Positions 38,226 to 49,696 of a stretch of DNA of 64,000 nt are shown here, in pieces. The stretch is from Onthophagus taurus. Lineage: Eukaryota; Arthropoda; Insecta; Coleoptera; Scarabaeidae. Position 1 is the first letter of the stretch; each line of letters opens with the position of its first letter. The notes under the pieces are model-generated. The model worked only from the letters and a program-made list of their open reading frames with translations. It did not search any database and was not told the DNA's origin. The DNA is taken from positions 10,044,001 to 10,108,000 of the forward strand of contig NC_091968.1 of NCBI RefSeq assembly GCF_036711975.1. The letters are read 5' to 3'. The position numbers and the translations under genes are program-made.

Positions 38226-40292
38226 TTATAGCAAAATCGTAACAATTTTTTCGGATATTAAAGTTTTAGAATGAAGAAGTCCTGCCAAAGTATTTGTGCT
38301 TAATCTGTTTCTTTGTTTTATTTTATTAATATTAATTGAACTAAAAACCCTTTCAACACAAGCACTGCTATGGGGAAGAACAAATAAAATACTGACCAAC
38401 TGTGAAAGTTGTGGGTATAACAAAGTGCCGTCGCCTTTTTTGAGGTTGCTAACTTCTTTCCAAAAATCTAACTCGTCCAATCCAAAATTAATTGAAGAAT
38501 ATTTTAATGATCGAAATTCTCGATCTACATCATTTTGATGTATTGCTAGATTCGAAAAATTAGCAAGTAATGGACCAAGACTATCAACTTCTGCAATGGA
38601 TGAAGGGTTTAAAACATTTAATGCTTTCAAAATTATTGCTTCTCGTGAGTTGAACGGGAATCGCTTGAAAATTTGATGGGCTGCTTCAGTGTAAAAATGT
38701 AGACATTTTAAACGAAAAGAATGTTTTACACTATCTGGTAGGCTAACATTTGCTAACGCTACTGCGACTTTCGGACCCATGTACAAGTGTAGTTTGTATT
38801 GTAGTTTGCTTAAATCAGTATTTTTTAAATACTCTGGTTTTATGTAATAACTTAACAATAATTTAAAACATTGTTCCATTCTTGGATAGAGTATGTGAAT
38901 CTTAGGCGCTTCAGCTTGAAATTCTAAATTTAAATCATTAAACGTAGGTAATACAAATTCTAAGAATTCTAAGTACAATTTATTAACAGGATTTTTAAGA
39001 TGTTCATATATTTCGAATGCACCAGAAACAGAATCAGAACATTCAGCTTGAAAATAAAGTTTTAGCGATTCAAATTGTTCTAAAACCCTTTGTACTACTG
39101 TATTTAAAGACAACCATCGAGTCTGGGAAGGGTGTAATATTTTGTGAGGTTTAACATTCAAAAATAATTGAAATTATTGAAATTCAGTTCTGCGTTTAAA
39201 ACTGTATTGCATGTAAGTGTATACACTTCTTAGTAATTTTTCAACATCATCGGGCAATGTTTGGTTAGATGAACATAGCGCCAGCGAATGGCAAACACAT
39301 TTCATTACAAATAAATGTGGAACATCTTTTAACAGTAATGTTTTTAAAGAATTTATATTTCCCATCATTGTGTTGGCACCATCCGCAGCAAAACCAACTA
39401 AATTTTGTTTATATGGCACATTATATTTGTTGAAAAAATTCGTAATTGAGTTATAAAGATTTTGAGCAGTAGCATCTCCTACCGGAATTAAAGCTAAAAA
39501 TTCGTCTTTTATTTTCAAATTCTCATTGTAACGAATAACAATAGTTAAATGTTTAACAGCCCAGCTATCAGTAGACTCATCCACTAGCATCGAAAATTTT
39601 TTCATCTTCAACTTTTCAACTAATATTTCGAAGTTGGTTTTTCCAATTACATTATTGATCAAAGCTGTGCATTTTGTTCTGCCACAAGACAATTTCCGAA
39701 TATATTCTATTCCGGAGAGAATTATAGATTTGACCAATTCTGTTAAATGATCAGATGTGTTAATTGATATATTATGTTCTGCTATGAAAGCAGCAATTCT
39801 AATTTCATTTTGTTTTAGAATTTTACCAGCAGTAGTAGTGAATTGAAAAGATTGTTTTGTTAAAGTAGGTTGATTTTTTACAGATGCAGCTGCTTGTTTA
39901 TGTTTATTTGAATCATTATATTTTTTAATAGCACCTAAACCACCTAAATAATCACTAGAACAAATCTTACATCTAAAATAATTGTTACCACGCTCGCTTC
40001 TTTCTATCCAATATTTAAAATTGTCCAGCTGTTCCCATTCGGGCTTATATTTTTGAATGTAGAACCGTCGTTTTTTCGAAATATGTGTATCTTCAGCATC
40101 GGTAAATGAAGTATTGGAAGACTCTAGATATTCAACGTCTAGATTTTGATTTCTTGTACTTGGCTCTGGACAAGATTCTCCTCTATTGGAAGATGTATCT
40201 TCTGAAGATGGACCAGCAACCACATTTTCGACACTTGTACGTGGTCCAAGAGACTCTGGTGATTTTCTTTTCGAAATTAAAAATCTTTTCAT
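38226..40292 (-). pseudogene. hAT transposase with a single in-frame stop
   Basis: Reads from MKRFLISKRKSPESLGPR through a Ser-rich leader and a BED-like zinc finger (FRCKICSSDYLGGLG...NKHKQA). The DUF4371-type core has MLVDESTDS, VGFAADGANTMMGN and MKCVCHSLAL, with PSQTRWLSL after the break. The C-terminal hAT dimerisation region is LPHSSACVERVFSSININKI then KQRNRLSTNTLAGLL, and it ends at 38226. One TAA at 39174-39176 splits an otherwise open frame of about 688 codons. A one-base reversal would reopen it, so inactivation is recent or due to a sequence error. Confidence 0.88.
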
Positions 40293-40772: not shown

Positions 40773-43639
40773 CTATACTAGGTCATCAAAAGTGCTCAGA
40801 CAGTACTCTTCCACACTGTAGAATGCTCTCGCTAACAAGTAATTTCTGATCTTTGATTTAAAATTATTAATATCAAGTAATTTAATGGGATTAGGCAACA
40901 AATTAAAAAATTTAATTCCATAATAATTAGTGCCATCCCTAGCTCTTTCAGTGCGAGTATAATCAATCATGAGATTATCATGGTGTCTGGTTCCATAATG
41001 ATGGACCTCATCATGTCTTTTGAAATTCTGAAGATTTTTTTTAATGTAAAGGAGACAGTTAAATATATAAATACAAGGTAGAGTTAAGATTTTTAACTCT
41101 ACAAATTTAGCTCTACAACACTCAGCGAATTTTAAATTCGAAATCACTCTGATACATCGTCTCTGAGCGCTAAACACCCGAGCAGCATGTGCAGAATGAC
41201 CCCAAGCGAGAATGGCATATGATAAGTGAGCATGAAAATAACCATAGTATGCTGTCATAACTGTATTTACTGGAACGATATTAATTAAATTTCTAATACA
41301 GTAAATAATTTTGTTTAATTTACTAGTTGTTCGTATTGCATGCTCTTCCCATGTAAGTTTACGATCTAAATGAACTCCTAGATATTTGACAGTAAGGTTA
41401 TCAACATTATCACCTAGTGCGCGCAAAGAGAAGAGTAACCGCTGAGTCTTAAATTCATTTACGCTAAGCTGACTAGCTGAAAACCAGTCAAAAATGCAAC
41501 CCTGAGATCCAACCACCTCACTAAAAAGATCCGGCAAATTATCACTTATATTCACAGTGGTTGTGTCATCACCAAATAATATAATGTTACTTGACTCAGG
41601 AACGTTATCAGCTAAGTCATTAATAAATAATAAAAAAAGTATGGGGCCCAGCACAGACCCTTGAGGTACTCCATACTTAATAGATAATTTTGAAGATAGT
41701 CTATTTTTATAAATTACTTGTTGCAATCGATTTAATAAATAAGCTTTAAGCTAGTAGCAGAACCAGTATCAAAGCCAAAATTTTGTAATTTAATTAACAA
41801 TTGGTTATGAGATACGCAATCAAATGCTTTCGTAAGATCGTAAAAGGATGCCTGTGCATAATGTTTGTTTTCAAAACATTCGTTAACATATGAAACTAAT
41901 TTGCAAATTGCTGACGTAGTTGATTTATTTTTCCTAAAACCAAACTGTGACTCGTTTAGGAGGTTATTGGATTTAAGATACGCAATTAACTGGTTATATA
42001 AAACTATTTCGAAAATTTTACCCAAAGCAGGTGTAATTGAGATTGGTCTGTAATTTGAGACCTCATTAATTGACCCCCTTTTGAAAACAGGTACCACTTT
42101 ACTTATTTTTACGCAATCAGGGAAAATATAAACAGCAATACATTGATTAATCAGCTTAGCTAAGGGAATAATAATTAAGTTTTGAATAACTTTTATGATG
42201 TTCGGATTCAAACCATAAATATCTTTACTGGAAGTATTCTTAAGCGTAGAAATGACATTTCTCATGTCGTTAAACGATATTTCATGAAAATTGAACTGTC
42301 CCGAAAAAAAATTAACATTATCCGAACCTTTACTTTGATGTAGTGGAATATCAGAAAGTAGTTCTTCCGCAATATTGCAGAAGTAACTGTTGAAGTCATC
42401 CGCATTACATTCATTCACGCTATCAATAGCTCGCCTAGGGTTGTTGTTTTTGATAACATTCCACACAGCCCTCTGGGTATTTTTAGAATTAGAAATGTAT
42501 CTACTATTTGTTACTTTTTTATTTTTAAGTATAATTCTACGATAGTGCCTTCTACAAGTCTTTACACAGTCCCAAGGAATAAACTCTGGAAAGGATTTGT
42601 TAAGATCAGAAACCAAATTGAGCAGATCTCTAGCTAGTTTAACTTCGTTATTAAACCAGGATACATGATTAGTGTCGATGTCTTTACTATCGACAATTTT
42701 AGTTTTTAATTGAAAGCAAGAATTTAGAGCATCAGATAATAATTCAACAAATACTTTGAATTTAGTATTTACGTCAATATTCGATTGATTAATAAAGGAA
42801 AAATCAATTTTCTCAACAAAATTATAAAATTTTAGAAGGCCGTAGCGAGTAATTGGTCGATAACTAATTTTAGATTTAGATTTAGAGTAGCAATTAGCAA
42901 TGTTACACTCGAAAGAGATCGCCGAGTGATCCGACAAACATGGGTTCACCACCTTTACATTCCAAAGATTGGTATCAAGGTTAGTAAATACATTATCAAG
43001 GTAAGCGTTTAATCTGGAAGCTTCTTTCGTAGCTATGCTCAATCCGAATGATGAAAAAAGATCCCGCAATAGCCAAGACTCTTTAGAGTTTGATTCAAAA
43101 TGAACATTAAAGTCCCCAGACACCACAACACCTCTATCAAATGATAACCTCCCTAAAAGTTCTGATAATTTTGATAAATAAAGATGAAAATCTCCGTTAG
43201 GAGAGCGATAGACTGTCACGAGCTAAACACCGTTAACAAGCAAGCCTACAGCTTCAAAATCAATTTCCTTGGAAAAATACATTAAATCAAACGAAAATTG
43301 TTTAGGGGATATAGTTGTATAATTACTGTAAATGGCCACACCCCCATTCTTATGAACATGGCGACAAAAATTTGATGTATTAGCAAACCCATCTATTTTC
43401 AAAGAATTTATCTCATCATCTGACAACCAATGTTCATTAAAACACAGAATATCAAAATTATTATCTTTGGCAAAAATTTCAAGCTGCAAGCTTTTGCCAT
43501 TAAGACCCTGTATATTATAGTGTAAAATTTTAATTGTCTTTGACACGTCATCGTCGTCCGGATTAACAAACTTAACACTAATGTCATTATCATATACGCC
43601 ATAAACTAGTTTACTGTTACAATTGGATTTAGGTAGCAA
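40773..43639 (-). pseudogene. LINE ORF2: APE endonuclease and reverse transcriptase
   Basis: The endonuclease reads ILHYNIQGLNGK, CFNEHWLSDDE, GGVAIYSNY, then past an in-frame TAG at 43220-43222 VYRSPNGDF, VVVSGDFNVHF, LDNVFTN and LSDHSAISFE. RT reads KISKVVPVFKRGS, NYRPISITPALGKIFE, QFGFRKNKSTTSAI and YDLTKAFDCVSH. After a frameshift near 41730 it gives YGVPQGSVLGPILFLLFIND and an active site of IILFGDDTTTVN (FGDD where YADD is usual, near 41570). The C-terminus has YLGVHLDRKLTWEEH and YGTRHHDNL. It starts 34 bases inside the end of ORF1. One stop and one frameshift. Confidence 0.85.
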
Positions 43640-43867
43640 AAATTCTGATCAGAACAATCTATATTAATTAAATTAGGATGCAGATTTCGAGAAGCGCTGG
43701 ATATATTTAAGATAAGTTTACCTAGGTACATATACAATTTATTTTTACCACGGCCATTCATATGTAGTCCATGTTTAGTTTTATCTCGTGGTCCTAATAG
43801 TGAATTTGTCTCCAAAAAATGACAACGGCTTCTTATATTAACATTTACACTGAGGAATTGATATATC

Positions 43868-46800
43868 GCACCGCGGCAAGAACAGTGACATAACTCAAAA
43901 ATGCAGTATTTGGGAAATAACAAATAAGAGAAAACCATAAAACTTAAATTGCAATAGTGTAAGTTTCTGTTAAATTTCAGGTAAGTATTTTTGGCAGTAA
44001 ATTCTATTATATTCTAAAGAATAATATTAAGGATATGTAAATCAACTTTTGTTGGATTTTGTGGTGTTACCAGGTCAAAACGGGTGAGGTGTCTGAGTTA
44101 TGTCACTTTTCTTGCTTCTCCAAAATCTTTTTTTTGTTGTGACCTATCTATCAAGTATCACTTATGTCACATTTCAAACCTAAATTATAATATTTATTTA
44201 GCTTAATTAACCTCAGATTAGACTACTTATAATAAAAAAATAAGAAATTAACTGTTTTATTAGCTTATTTAAACTACAAATATTAAATGAACGTAAAGTA
44301 ATTAGTAAACAATTTACATAAACATCGATTCATAAATGGGCATTTTGTGGAGATAAGGTATTTAATATGAGCCTGCTTTGTAGCAGAGATTTCAATTTTT
44401 TTTTGTATGCCGAAACGTATTTTATTGTAGAGATGCTCTCTTGCTTTCTCCTGGTTTTATTATTTACATTGATTTGCGCATATTCTTTTTGTTTGTACGT
44501 AGTTTTCACAAAAAGAATGCCGGGGTCAGTCTTCTGCACTTTAATTACTTTTATGTCGGATATTTTTATCTGTTCGTGGTTTGATGTTTTGCTGTAGTTT
44601 GACCCTACCTGATGAGAGAGCTGTTTCAAATCTACAAAATCGTCATAACCCAATTCTGTTACTTTATACGGATTTCCTGTTTTTCTCGCAGACCGAATTA
44701 ATCTGACATAATCTGTGAGAATATAGATGTTGCCCGATTTCAGAGCTCGTTTAATTGACTTCTCTATGACAGAATGCACATTGTCCCCTTCATTTTGTGT
44801 GTGACCCCTGATAAGAAATTTATGTGTGATCGATTTGATTTTCAATTGTTGCACAGCGTACAGGTACATTGCCATTATAAATTTGTTCTTTTGCTGGCCG
44901 CAACAATTATCCGAGTAGAGTACAATTTCAAGGTTATCGTCGTTTTTAGTGTTAGCTTTTTCTTCTAAGTATTTCAGAACGCTAGAGCCGATTTCTATGG
45001 CACCCCGATTTCCTTGACCTTCATGCCAAAAAAAGCACTTGACGTAATCTGACTGAAGTTCGTTTACAGTTAAGTTGTAGCTGTTGATTTTGCTTTTATA
45101 ATAAAAGGTATTCGTATCCCCTTTTGGTGCTGGGAGCACAGCTTGAAGATCATAAGTGGCGACTATAATTTTTCCTTCGCTTTCTTTTGCTTTCTTTTTA
45201 TCCTCTTCTTTCTCTGCTCTTGACAAAACTTTCTCCTTTAAATGTTTATCGTATTTTTCTTGTATCGTTTTTTTTTCTTCTTTACTTGAGTTGTTATAGG
45301 AGCTGCATAATTCGCATTGATCTTTTTTTGGGGTAAAAAAAGAGATGTTAAAATTGCTGTTAAAAATTCGGGAATACATCGTGAGATTTGCAAATGGAAG
45401 GTTTTTTTCCCGGCGCTCGTTTTTGTAGTCGCGGTGTAAATCAGCCAAGCTTTTCCCACCTTCTATAAACTCCCGAGTAGTTTGCGCGCGCAGATAATGA
45501 CTGTCAATTCTTGGGATTGTATTAATATGAGCAATGACACTATCTTTTATTGCGGCATCTATTTTAGAGTGATGTCCGTGTTTTCCTCTGAGATCTTCTT
45601 GAAGAAATCCTTCGTTTAATTTGCTTATTACAGTCCTAATAGGTCGGTCATTGATGTCCAGTGTGGCTTTGAAGAAAAATTTGCAAACACGTACGTTTAC
45701 TTCGTTGATTACGAAATGGAATGCGTGGTTACATTGACGCGTACTTCCTTCTCTTTTGTACTGATACCGAGGTGTAACGGCGTTCATACTTCTACCGATA
45801 AATTCTCGATGGGATTTCAGACTGCCAAGTGACCAGTATTTGTTAAATATTTCGAGCCTTTTATTTTCTTCTATTTTCCTTGAGCATTGTTGTTTGCATT
45901 TTTCATTACACGCCGGACGTACCTTTCTTGCCTGCATTTCTGTTTTGCGAATTGATGATGATGTATAAGGTTTCCCAGTATTTCGGCGGAGTTTAGCTTT
46001 AGACTTTTTCCACTCAACCAGATTTGCTTTCCTTTTCTTCCCTTTTCTCTTGCGATCTGCTTGGGTATTCTCTGCTTTATCCTCTGTCTCGTTAGTGATA
46101 TTTTCATTCTCTTTCGATCTTGATGATCCCGACGCATTTTCAGAATCAGAAAATGAGGGCATAATATGAAAATGTGATTCTGCTGATTCTTGTTGTGGAA
46201 CACCTGATTTAACCCGTTGTAACCTCAATCGCATTGTATGCGGATTTTCAGTACGCTGCCATCTAGAGTATTGTATTCTTCTGTCGTTGTTTGTTTTAAT
46301 TTTCAGACTTTTATTGCCGGAGTTTCTATTAAGCGCTTCCGACCTTCTTTTAAGTCCTGTTTTAATGTCAGCAGTAGCAGCAATAGCTGCCACCATTTTC
46401 CTACCTCTGTATCCTTGCATAGGTTCCATACCAAGCCTAAAACAAACAAATTTTAAGCTACATTATTAATATTTAGTTCCTAAAGTTCTTTATTCAAAAT
46501 TACAAAGTTAGGTAAATACAGTGTAAGAAATACATTTAAATCAAGAAAAGTGACCCAACACAAAATACTGATACTTTCAGTCAGGAAAAGTGACACAAGT
46601 CGAAATAAAACAGTACAATAAAAAAGGTTTACAGATAATTTCAAAAAAAGTGACACTTTTTTACTTATGACTATTTTAATAATTATATTCCACTTACCTT
46701 GCTCAACGAAAACTGTCACAACTGAAAATATGTCGTTTATCTTGACCGAAACATGCACACTTTCTTGTAGCAACACTAAAGTGACACTGTTCTTGCCATA

Positions 46801-46974
46801 ATAAGTAATGAACTAGACTAAAACAAAACTGACATAACTGCCTTCTGACGGATAAATTATGAGTTTGAAATGTGACGTTTTTCTGCACGTCGGGGGCACA
46901 TCAGACCTATTTATTACTGACATAACCTCAAAACTGTCATTTTTTGAGTTGTGACACTATTCTCGCCGGGGTGC
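43868..46974 (-). mobile_element. 3.1-kb DNA transposon of an uncharacterised family, 8-bp TSD
   Basis: Flanked by a perfect 8-bp duplication GATATATC (43860-43867 and 46975-46982). Removing the element and one copy rejoins the LINE ORF1 frame. On the minus strand it begins GCACCCCGGCGAGAATAGTG then TCACAACTC; the other end, read inward, is GCACCGCGGCAAGAACAGTG then ACATAACTC, an imperfect inverted repeat of about 35 bp. AGTGACAC/AGTGACATAA motifs repeat in both subterminal regions (43890, 44098, 44165 and 46548-46960). One intact 699-codon gene. A 5' untranslated exon with donor GCAAGGTAAGT (46698) and acceptor TTGTTTTAGGC (just before 46429) is likely. Confidence 0.85.
44330..46429 (-). CDS. 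Putative transposase, 699 residues, DUF7869-like
   Basis: Intact frame. Residues 1-170 are basic and Ser-rich. A Cys cluster CNEKCKQQC lies at 174-182. Residues 190-262 (RLEIFNKYWS ... VRVCKFFFKATLDI) match the N-terminal motif of a large, poorly characterised insect family, and CELC is at 372-375. A predicted RNase H-like core follows: D427 in IIVATYDLQAVLPAP, WHEGQGNRGAIEIGS at 468-482, D507 in VLYSDNCCGQQKNKF, and GHTQNEGDNVHSVIEKSI at 542-559 with H543, E547, D549 and E556. The three acidic positions are candidates for metal-binding catalytic residues; this is inference. That it is the transposase follows from being the only gene between clean TIRs. I recall such proteins under a DUF7869-type label but could not check. 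Confidence 0.75.
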   Translation of the reverse strand: MEPMQGYRGRKMVAAIAATADIKTGLKRRSEALNRNSGNKSLKIKTNNDRRIQYSRWQRTENPHTMRLRLQRVKSGVPQQESAESHFHIMPSFSDSENASGSSRSKENENITNETEDKAENTQADRKRKGKKRKANLVEWKKSKAKLRRNTGKPYTSSSIRKTEMQARKVRPACNEKCKQQCSRKIEENKRLEIFNKYWSLGSLKSHREFIGRSMNAVTPRYQYKREGSTRQCNHAFHFVINEVNVRVCKFFFKATLDINDRPIRTVISKLNEGFLQEDLRGKHGHHSKIDAAIKDSVIAHINTIPRIDSHYLRAQTTREFIEGGKSLADLHRDYKNERREKNLPFANLTMYSRIFNSNFNISFFTPKKDQCELCSSYNNSSKEEKKTIQEKYDKHLKEKVLSRAEKEEDKKKAKESEGKIIVATYDLQAVLPAPKGDTNTFYYKSKINSYNLTVNELQSDYVKCFFWHEGQGNRGAIEIGSSVLKYLEEKANTKNDDNLEIVLYSDNCCGQQKNKFIMAMYLYAVQQLKIKSITHKFLIRGHTQNEGDNVHSVIEKSIKRALKSGNIYILTDYVRLIRSARKTGNPYKVTELGYDDFVDLKQLSHQVGSNYSKTSNHEQIKISDIKVIKVQKTDPGILFVKTTYKQKEYAQINVNNKTRRKQESISTIKYVSAYKKKLKSLLQSRLILNTLSPQNAHL

Positions 46975-47880
46975 GATATATCTCGATTAATTTTGTAAAT
47001 ATAATTGTCGTTGAGGTTTCTGGTTCCAGAACAGACATGAAAATAACATTAGTTATACTACTGACAGATCTAACTTTTTTTAGTACATCACTTGTAATCT
47101 TACAATTACTCAACGCGTTATTGCAACCTCCAAATAAGATCACAAAATCAGATTTAGTAAAATTAGCACATAATAATTCAATATCCTTAACAACTTCGTC
47201 AAGATAGGCATTCGGTTTACATATAGTAAGAATCTCAAACGTGCCAGGAAGATAATTACGTAGATAATCACTACCACTACGCGCGTGGCTGTCGCCCAGT
47301 ATTAACACCTTCGCCTTAGGGGTAAGACCCACAGGATTCGGTCCCTCCGCATGTACAACAGGAACAGAAGTTGCAGCCGCAGGAGGCAGTTCCAATGGTT
47401 TCTCATTGTCAGTTTCCGGTGCCAATGATTTCTTATTTAGCACGTCTGTCACCAATTCGGATTTTTACGGCACTTTTTTGATCGCGACTTTAATGACTTA
47501 GTCAATCTAATCTTTAAATATCCAATATCTTTCTCCAACTGGTCGATTTTATTAAGTAATTGTAAAGTTGATTGACTCTTTCGTACTTTTTTTAATTTTA
47601 CTTGTTTATGTTTTTTAGGTTTAGATTCGATAATAGTCTCGACGCTAGTACAACTGTTAAAAGAACCGTCAAGATCATCGTCAGAAACATGAATTACAGT
47701 TTTATGTATTTTAGTATTTAAAACACTCTTATCAATTCATGTTTGTTACCAGAAGAGTCAGCACCCAAATTATGAAGAATGTTTTTAAGTTGAATAAACT
47801 TTAAATCGTCTAGATTTTCCATTGTAAGAAGAAGGGAAATTAAGTTACTTTTAATTAATGCTTTAAAATTCTTATTAATT

Positions 47881-48784: not shown

Positions 48785-49696
48785 TTATAAATTCTTTATA
48801 ATTAATTCCTTTTGGACCCAGTCATGAACGGAATATTCACCTATAGCAAGTGTTTGAAGAAACATTTGTTTACAAACTTGCACTTTGTTCATATTTATTG
48901 TGAGAAAATATTTTAAGAAATATTTTCGCCTACTCTCAAAGCTTTTAGTATACGTTCTTTTTGTGCCAGTTTTTTCTATGTGATTGATCACAAACACTTT
49001 TCGTTGATCCCAATTCATTTCACTCCAGAATTTAGTAAATATGGCATTGCGCTGAACGTCATTAATTTCTGAACAATTCCTGGATTTTACTCTAAGGCAC
49101 TCTTTTGATTTGCAAGAAGAACCCATTTTTCTTGCTTCTTTTGGGACATTCTGTTTTACTTTACCTTCTTTAGTTCTGCTGTACCCCATGTACGCTTTTC
49201 CTTCCATTCGGCTCCTTTTTGCAGAATTTTTTACCCATTTATCAGGTTGAGCAGTAATACTTCTTTTCCTTCCTTCCGTTATATTGCCATGATTGATATC
49301 ATTTTCTGTTAATGTCTCATCCTGTTTTGTTTTTTCATCTTTTTCAGCATTATTTCCTTGCTCTTCGTCGCTCTCTGATGTACCATTTTCCTTTTTAGGT
49401 TCGTAGTCATCGTCATTAAAATCATTGTTAACACATTCTTCGTCTTTTCGTGCATCTAGCTCCAACATTTGAACATCTCTTAAATCCTCAATTATAATAT
49501 TTTCAACAGGTTGCAGATGGCTTATATCCTTCAGCTCCTCTAGCTTCAAATTCGTAATTACATTCAAATTAAATTAATACGCAAACAATGTTAGCATAGT
49601 AATGCAAAATAAATAAGTGCAAATATTTTTTGTTAAATATAATAGACTTCGTTGTTATACATAATAATTTAATATACTTACCTTAACTATTTCCAT
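48785..49696 (-). pseudogene. N-terminal half of a second DUF7869-like protein
   Basis: Exon 1 (49682-49696, MEIVK) ends at a GTAAGT donor. An in-phase acceptor (TTTGAAG) leads into LEELKDISHLQPVENI from about 49547. An acidic region follows (NNDFNDDDYEPKKENGTSES), then a basic region, then RNAIFTKFWSEMNWDQRKVF, KRTYTKSFESRRKYFLKYFL and VQVCKQMFLQTLAIGEYSVH. This has the same arrangement (IFxxFW, RKxF, R-rich, VCKxxFLxTL) as residues 190-262 of the transposase at 44330-46429, but in a clearly diverged sequence. It stops at 48785, before any catalytic region, so it is truncated, or further exons lie elsewhere or were displaced by the hAT insertion 170 bp away. Confidence 0.55.

Follow-up and report, generated by a model that had tools for sequence, protein, structure and literature searches.

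We analyzed a 64,000-bp stretch of the Onthophagus taurus genome (contig NC_091968.1, positions 10,044,001 to 10,108,000), here called the window. Between window positions 43867 and 46975 lies an element that is very probably a recently active cut-and-paste transposon, with a DUF7869 transposase of the DDD (Asp-Asp-Asp) type and a 4-bp target site duplication (TSD), most likely belonging to the Sola superfamily. DUF7869, a Pfam domain that had no assigned function, marks annotated "genes" of insects and other invertebrates, and it can now be called a probable transposase. With candidate catalytic residues, ends and a target named, such entries can be weeded out of gene sets, and the enzyme is open to testing.

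Ends of the element and the 4-bp target site duplication

Read on either strand, the element begins with CGCACC, and ATAT stands on each side of it, so that the window reads GATATAT[CGCACC...GGTGCG]ATATATC. We searched the beetle's own genome (290.8 Mb in 33 contigs) and found ATAT directly outside CGCACC at both ends in 7/7 copies with both ends located. A first-pass annotation made from the letters alone had described a DNA transposon with imperfect inverted ends of about 35 bp, inserted in a long interspersed nuclear element (LINE), and in this it was right. Each end lies one base further out than its bounds of 43868..46974, as the ATAT-CGCACC junctions show. The features of the ends are as follows.

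43867..46975, minus strand: transposon, 3109 bp, bounded by CG...CG, with ends common to all seven copies
43863..43866, no strand: left copy of the 4-bp TSD, ATAT; 7/7 copies, a net gain of 4 bp against LINE copies L085 and L086, 13/14 in a sister family
46976..46979, no strand: right copy of the 4-bp TSD, ATAT; 7/7 copies, same net gain
43867..43901, plus strand: left terminal inverted repeat (TIR), from sequence; 30/35 positions match the right repeat
46941..46975, minus strand: right TIR, from sequence
43867..44316, no strand: left subterminal region with three GTGACA repeats, both strands counted
46416..46975, no strand: right subterminal region with five GTGACA repeats in 560 bp, both strands counted

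The annotation had read the duplication as 8 bp, GATATATC, which does stand on both sides of the element in the window. This string consists of the element's own last base, C or G, plus the AT run of the target, and the other six copies have it on neither side. Using the left LINE flank as query, we found six further genomic places, four of which were read. L085 (99% identical to the flank) and L086 (98%) are uninterrupted LINE copies and read GATATATATC, so that the window flanks together gained 4 bp when the element inserted. Just past the site, L087 and L088 become too different to be informative, and the remaining two matches end short of it. A further argument for 8 bp had been that excision of the element plus one copy rejoins the LINE frame. 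This lends no support, since the frame is already open through GATATATATC in both L085 and L086 (KINRDIYQFLSVNVN). By eye, the right flank in the window lacks 2 bp and 5 bp that are present in L086; these, together with the 2 bp over-removed by the 8-bp reading, make 9 and probably account for the apparent rejoining. The genome search with the ends that the annotation had suggested as a check returned further copies with the same ends, and these are flanked by ATAT and lack the 8-bp string. With six copies, two empty sites and the sister family described below all against it, the reading that puts the element at 43868 to 46974 and has it duplicate 8 bp is refuted and keeps practically no chance of being correct.

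Because the AT runs of the window family are compatible with a duplication of 0, 2 or 4 bp, we brought in the sister family, whose protein is 33% identical to the window protein over 502 aligned columns (and 97% identical to an Onthophagus taurus protein over 76%) and whose elements end in CGTCCCC. The sister end CGTCCCCTTTCTCACGTAGTG has 15 forward and 15 reversed matches in the genome at up to two mismatches, and its reversed-letter control has none. Fourteen copies could be paired, which left two of the matched ends single. The 4-bp flanks are identical in 13/14 copies and comprise eight different sequences (ATAT six times; TATT, AAAT, ATTT, ATCT, ATAC, AAAA and ACAT once each). The match is exactly 4 bp long in 12 copies and 6 bp in one, an AT run as in the window. 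Random re-pairing of the flanks gives 3.6 matches on average, and 13 was never reached in 200000 trials.

These data also bear on two other placements of the ends, namely a TIR that begins TCGCACC and duplicates 2 bp (TA), or one that begins ATCGCACC and duplicates nothing. Both fit the window copy and the AT-rich empty site equally well when these are taken alone, and the window family by itself cannot decide, as ATAT adjoins CG in all seven copies. Sister-family copies differ from one another in the bases that adjoin CG, and yet in 13/14 the two sides of a copy match over 4 bp, a result that re-pairing never reproduced, and we regard both placements as very unlikely. Two further families agree in part with a 4-bp duplication: in a family with CGACGCC ends, for which three of the four listed pairs were read, flanks match in L051 (AGAT/AGAT) and L053 (ATAT/ATAT), and L045, with CGACC ends, is flanked by ATAT/ATAT. 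All four end types start with CG. Around the sister-family duplication, C precedes in 10/14 copies and G follows in 12/14, giving a roughly palindromic target consensus of about AC-ATAT-GT; in the window family, C precedes the duplication in 6/7 copies.

GTGACA occurs eight times on both strands in the 1010 bp of the two termini (450 left, 560 right) versus zero in the 2099-bp middle. Base-shuffled ends contain 0.29 on average and none of 2000 shuffles reached eight, for a motif and region limits that were picked after viewing the sequence. The repeats look like the subterminal repeats to which transposases bind.

The DUF7869 protein and its predicted fold

The single 699-codon gene of the first-pass annotation and its likeness to DUF7869 both held up. 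The open reading frame (ORF) is the only one above 110 codons within the element and matches DUF7869 (PF25273) at E 2.2e-12, with 47.4 bits against a gathering score of 26. The RNase H-like fold that the annotation had suggested from sequence patterns is predicted by an AlphaFold2 model. Features of the protein and its gene are listed here.

44330..46429, minus strand: probable transposase ORF, 699 codons, DUF7869 by Pfam match; C-terminal ~19 residues unlike those of two other copies
44735..45169, minus strand: predicted RNase H/DDE catalytic core, residues 421-565 (b1-b2-b3-a-b4-a-b5-a), from the AlphaFold2 model and structural matches in the PDB
45149..45151, minus strand: codon of D427, end of strand b1; 79/79 rows in alignment A1, 50/50 letters in alignment A2
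44909..44911, minus strand: codon of D507, just after b4; 79/79 in A1, 50/50 in A2
44783..44791, minus strand: codons of E547-G548-D549, start of the helix after b5; E547 and D549 each 79/79 and 50/50
45155..46042, minus strand: likely DNA-binding part, residues 130-425, with invariant C174/C178/C182, H311, C372/C375 and H396

Among the matches listed, all 50 structural matches to the predicted core are retroviral integrases or mariner-type transposases. A PDB sequence search up to E 10 gave a sole match at E 1.8, an unrelated enzyme. The candidate catalytic acids D427, D507 and D549 that the annotation had proposed are present, and they are invariant in the aligned relatives. One relative in the same genome, L041, has H at the D427 position. 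E556, offered as an alternative third acid, is not general: it occurs in 37/50 relatives and is S in the sister family, which has moved. We prefer D549 as the third acid, with E547 as a possible alternative; E547 is two residues away and equally conserved, which makes the protein compatible with DDE as well as DDD. D549xxH552 is invariant, and after it the 50 wider relatives have no invariant acidic residue, the acidic columns being E556 in 37, column 1351 (E) in 36, column 1356 (D) in 40 and column 1359 (D) in 42. Pfam match, predicted fold, shared ends and conserved acids together make it well supported that the DUF7869 protein is the RNase H-fold transposase of a defined transposon, a tie the annotation had foreseen.

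One could instead take the protein for a domesticated or passenger gene, given that the named relatives among the matches listed are annotated as uncharacterised, hypothetical or unnamed. We consider this highly improbable, as the element has no other ORF above 110 codons, the ORF recurs in dispersed copies with the same ends, and the protein has a predicted DDE-type core.

In the mechanism we propose, the DUF7869 protein would be a transposase of the DDD type, its RNase H core preceded on the N-terminal side by zinc-binding or winged-helix-like DNA-binding parts. It would bind the GTGACA-rich subterminal DNA and the inverted ends, cut at the CG ends, and join these, staggered by 4 bp, to a target that is A/T-rich and roughly palindromic; repair would then yield the 4-bp duplication.

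Among the relatives of the sister-family protein, P0171 and P0176 have an additional Pfam domain, PF04236, the Tc5 transposase C-terminal domain.

Superfamily placement

The Sola superfamily and its Sola2 group were reportedly described by Bao et al. in 2009. Excerpts of one paper characterize Sola by a DDD transposase, 4-bp TSDs, a size of mostly 2-9 kb and very variable termini (PMC10741241), and those of another give AT-rich 4-bp TSDs such as ATAT, AAAT and ATTT for Sola2 of social amoebae (PMC3627910). The elements here share the 4-bp TSD, inverted ends of variable sequence, and a size within that range; ATAT, AAAT and ATTT are also found among the TSDs of the window and sister families. 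The candidate acids D427, D507 and D549 in a predicted DDE core would agree with a DDD transposase, with E547 equally conserved. Because the candidate DDD acids and the AT-rich duplications of 4 bp correspond to what has been published on Sola, and especially on Sola2, we assign the element, with moderate confidence, to Sola as a Sola2-like member, a likeness drawn from published descriptions rather than from protein alignment. The amoebozoan Sola2 elements differ in having TIRs of 12-13 or 21 bp and a link to Fanzor1 (excerpts of PMC3627910), of which the one-ORF window element has no sign.

The annotation had placed the element in an uncharacterised superfamily after excluding a list of groups. 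That list omitted Sola, whose features as excerpted fit, and the claim is not established. DUF7869 transposases may still form an undescribed DDD superfamily with no sequence relationship to Sola. Its defining features would be 5'-CG termini, subterminal repeats of the GTGACA type, a roughly palindromic ACATATGT-like target and the 4-bp duplication; it would span insects, crustaceans and molluscs, with at least 150 places in one beetle genome, and would add one more superfamily of eukaryotic DNA transposons. Pfam offers only a DUF, the term DUF7869 was not found in the open-licence literature searched (the link may still be published), and the PDB sequence search gave only the unrelated enzyme noted above. 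The features of this would-be superfamily coincide with those excerpted for Sola, and Sola is among the DNA transposons found in all species of one arthropod survey (excerpts of PMC6327564), as expected for a family common in insects. On balance we think a separate superfamily unlikely, though a serious contender.

Other groups fit less well. piggyBac and Kolobok share 4-bp duplications, mostly of A/T, but by their excerpted definition both target and duplicate TTAA, whereas here the TSD varies and the target is not TTAA. Tc1/mariner elements, likewise by excerpted definition, duplicate 2-bp TA; here the TSD is 4 bp, and five of the eight sister-family types lack TA (AAAT, ATTT, ATCT, AAAA, ACAT). 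Compared with Tc1/mariner and retroviral-type integrases, which have the DDE/D fold, the window protein has an N-terminal region of its own, and it has no useful sequence similarity to PDB chains. hAT, P and MuDR are RNase H-fold cut-and-paste elements too, and D549xxH552 resembles their C/DxxH motif. They differ in a TSD of 7-12 bp, versus 4 bp here. The hAT duplication is 8 bp. Excerpts give 7-8 bp for P (PMC5199201) and 7-12 bp for MuDR (PMC10741241). In hAT, P, MuDR, Kolobok and Dada, C/DxxH lies between the second D and a conserved last E (excerpts of PMC9587614), whereas here the best acidic column after D549xxH552 reaches 42/50. The C(2)C and H(3-4)H motif excerpted for CMC (CACTA/Mirage/Chapaev) between the second D and last E (PMC12730594) is absent: beyond D507 the protein has no cysteines except the neighboring pair C509-C510, and its histidines H536, H543 and H552 are spaced 6 and 8 residues.

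Several points weigh against a Sola-type DUF7869 transposon with 4-bp duplications. The case is built from sequence and predicted structure. The empty-site test consists of two LINE copies, whose AT run may differ in length. Flanks are unequal in one of the 14 sister copies (ATAT/ACAT) and in L048, one of the three CGACGCC-family copies read (ACAT/CACT), and G follows the duplication in just 3/7 window-family copies. The single Foldseek match to reach E 0.001 is an Argonaute domain, not a transposase. The likeness to Sola is one of published features, not of proteins, and the excerpted descriptions give no Sola terminal sequence to compare with CG. Finally, the window copy may be defective at its C-terminus.

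Copies, relatives and neighboring sequence

The left end had 7 matches in the genome and the right end 11, the window copy counted in, and 8 of the 11 right-end matches are at 96% identity or above. Pairwise identity among five of the seven copies is 98.28-99.05% over shared sequence, a comparison that left out the C6 copy and the second C3 copy (ends 5 and 7 kb apart). The transposon is young and recently active, and the near-identity of its copies recommends it for activity assays. To call the window copy intact, as the annotation did, is too strong: at 3109 bp it falls 20 bp short of the C1 and C10 copies (3129 bp), and its last ~19 residues are unlike the C-terminus common to those two, which by eye the relative P0001 (77% identical) resembles. 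Several other copies have stops or partial protein coverage. The end pattern of the window family occurs at 29 genomic places; beyond the seven paired copies and one lone right end, 14 of them match with one or two mismatches; these are possibly diverged or non-autonomous relatives.

The PF25273 profile matches at least 150 places in the genome, all above the family cut-off, this being the number scored out of 536 first-look candidates; 14 control genomes gave no match to the profile. Named relatives among the matches listed come from beetles, moths, butterflies, bugs, a fungus gnat, a crab and gastropods.

The host LINE occupies window positions 41732-43639 and 46937-47455 (minus strand), and the transposon sits in its ORF1. 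The LINE's endonuclease/reverse transcriptase ORF matches RVT_1, and the ORF1 piece has SGNH similarity below the cut-off. A fragment at 39174-40292 (minus strand) matches DUF4371 at E 1.2e-8 and is presumably of hAT type. At 48785-49567 (minus strand), a 260-codon ORF resembles only the N-terminal part of the more distant DUF7869 protein L041 (31%, E 1e-10 for that single comparison), and it is probably left over from a second member of the family, 2 kb from the transposon, or is that member's first exon.
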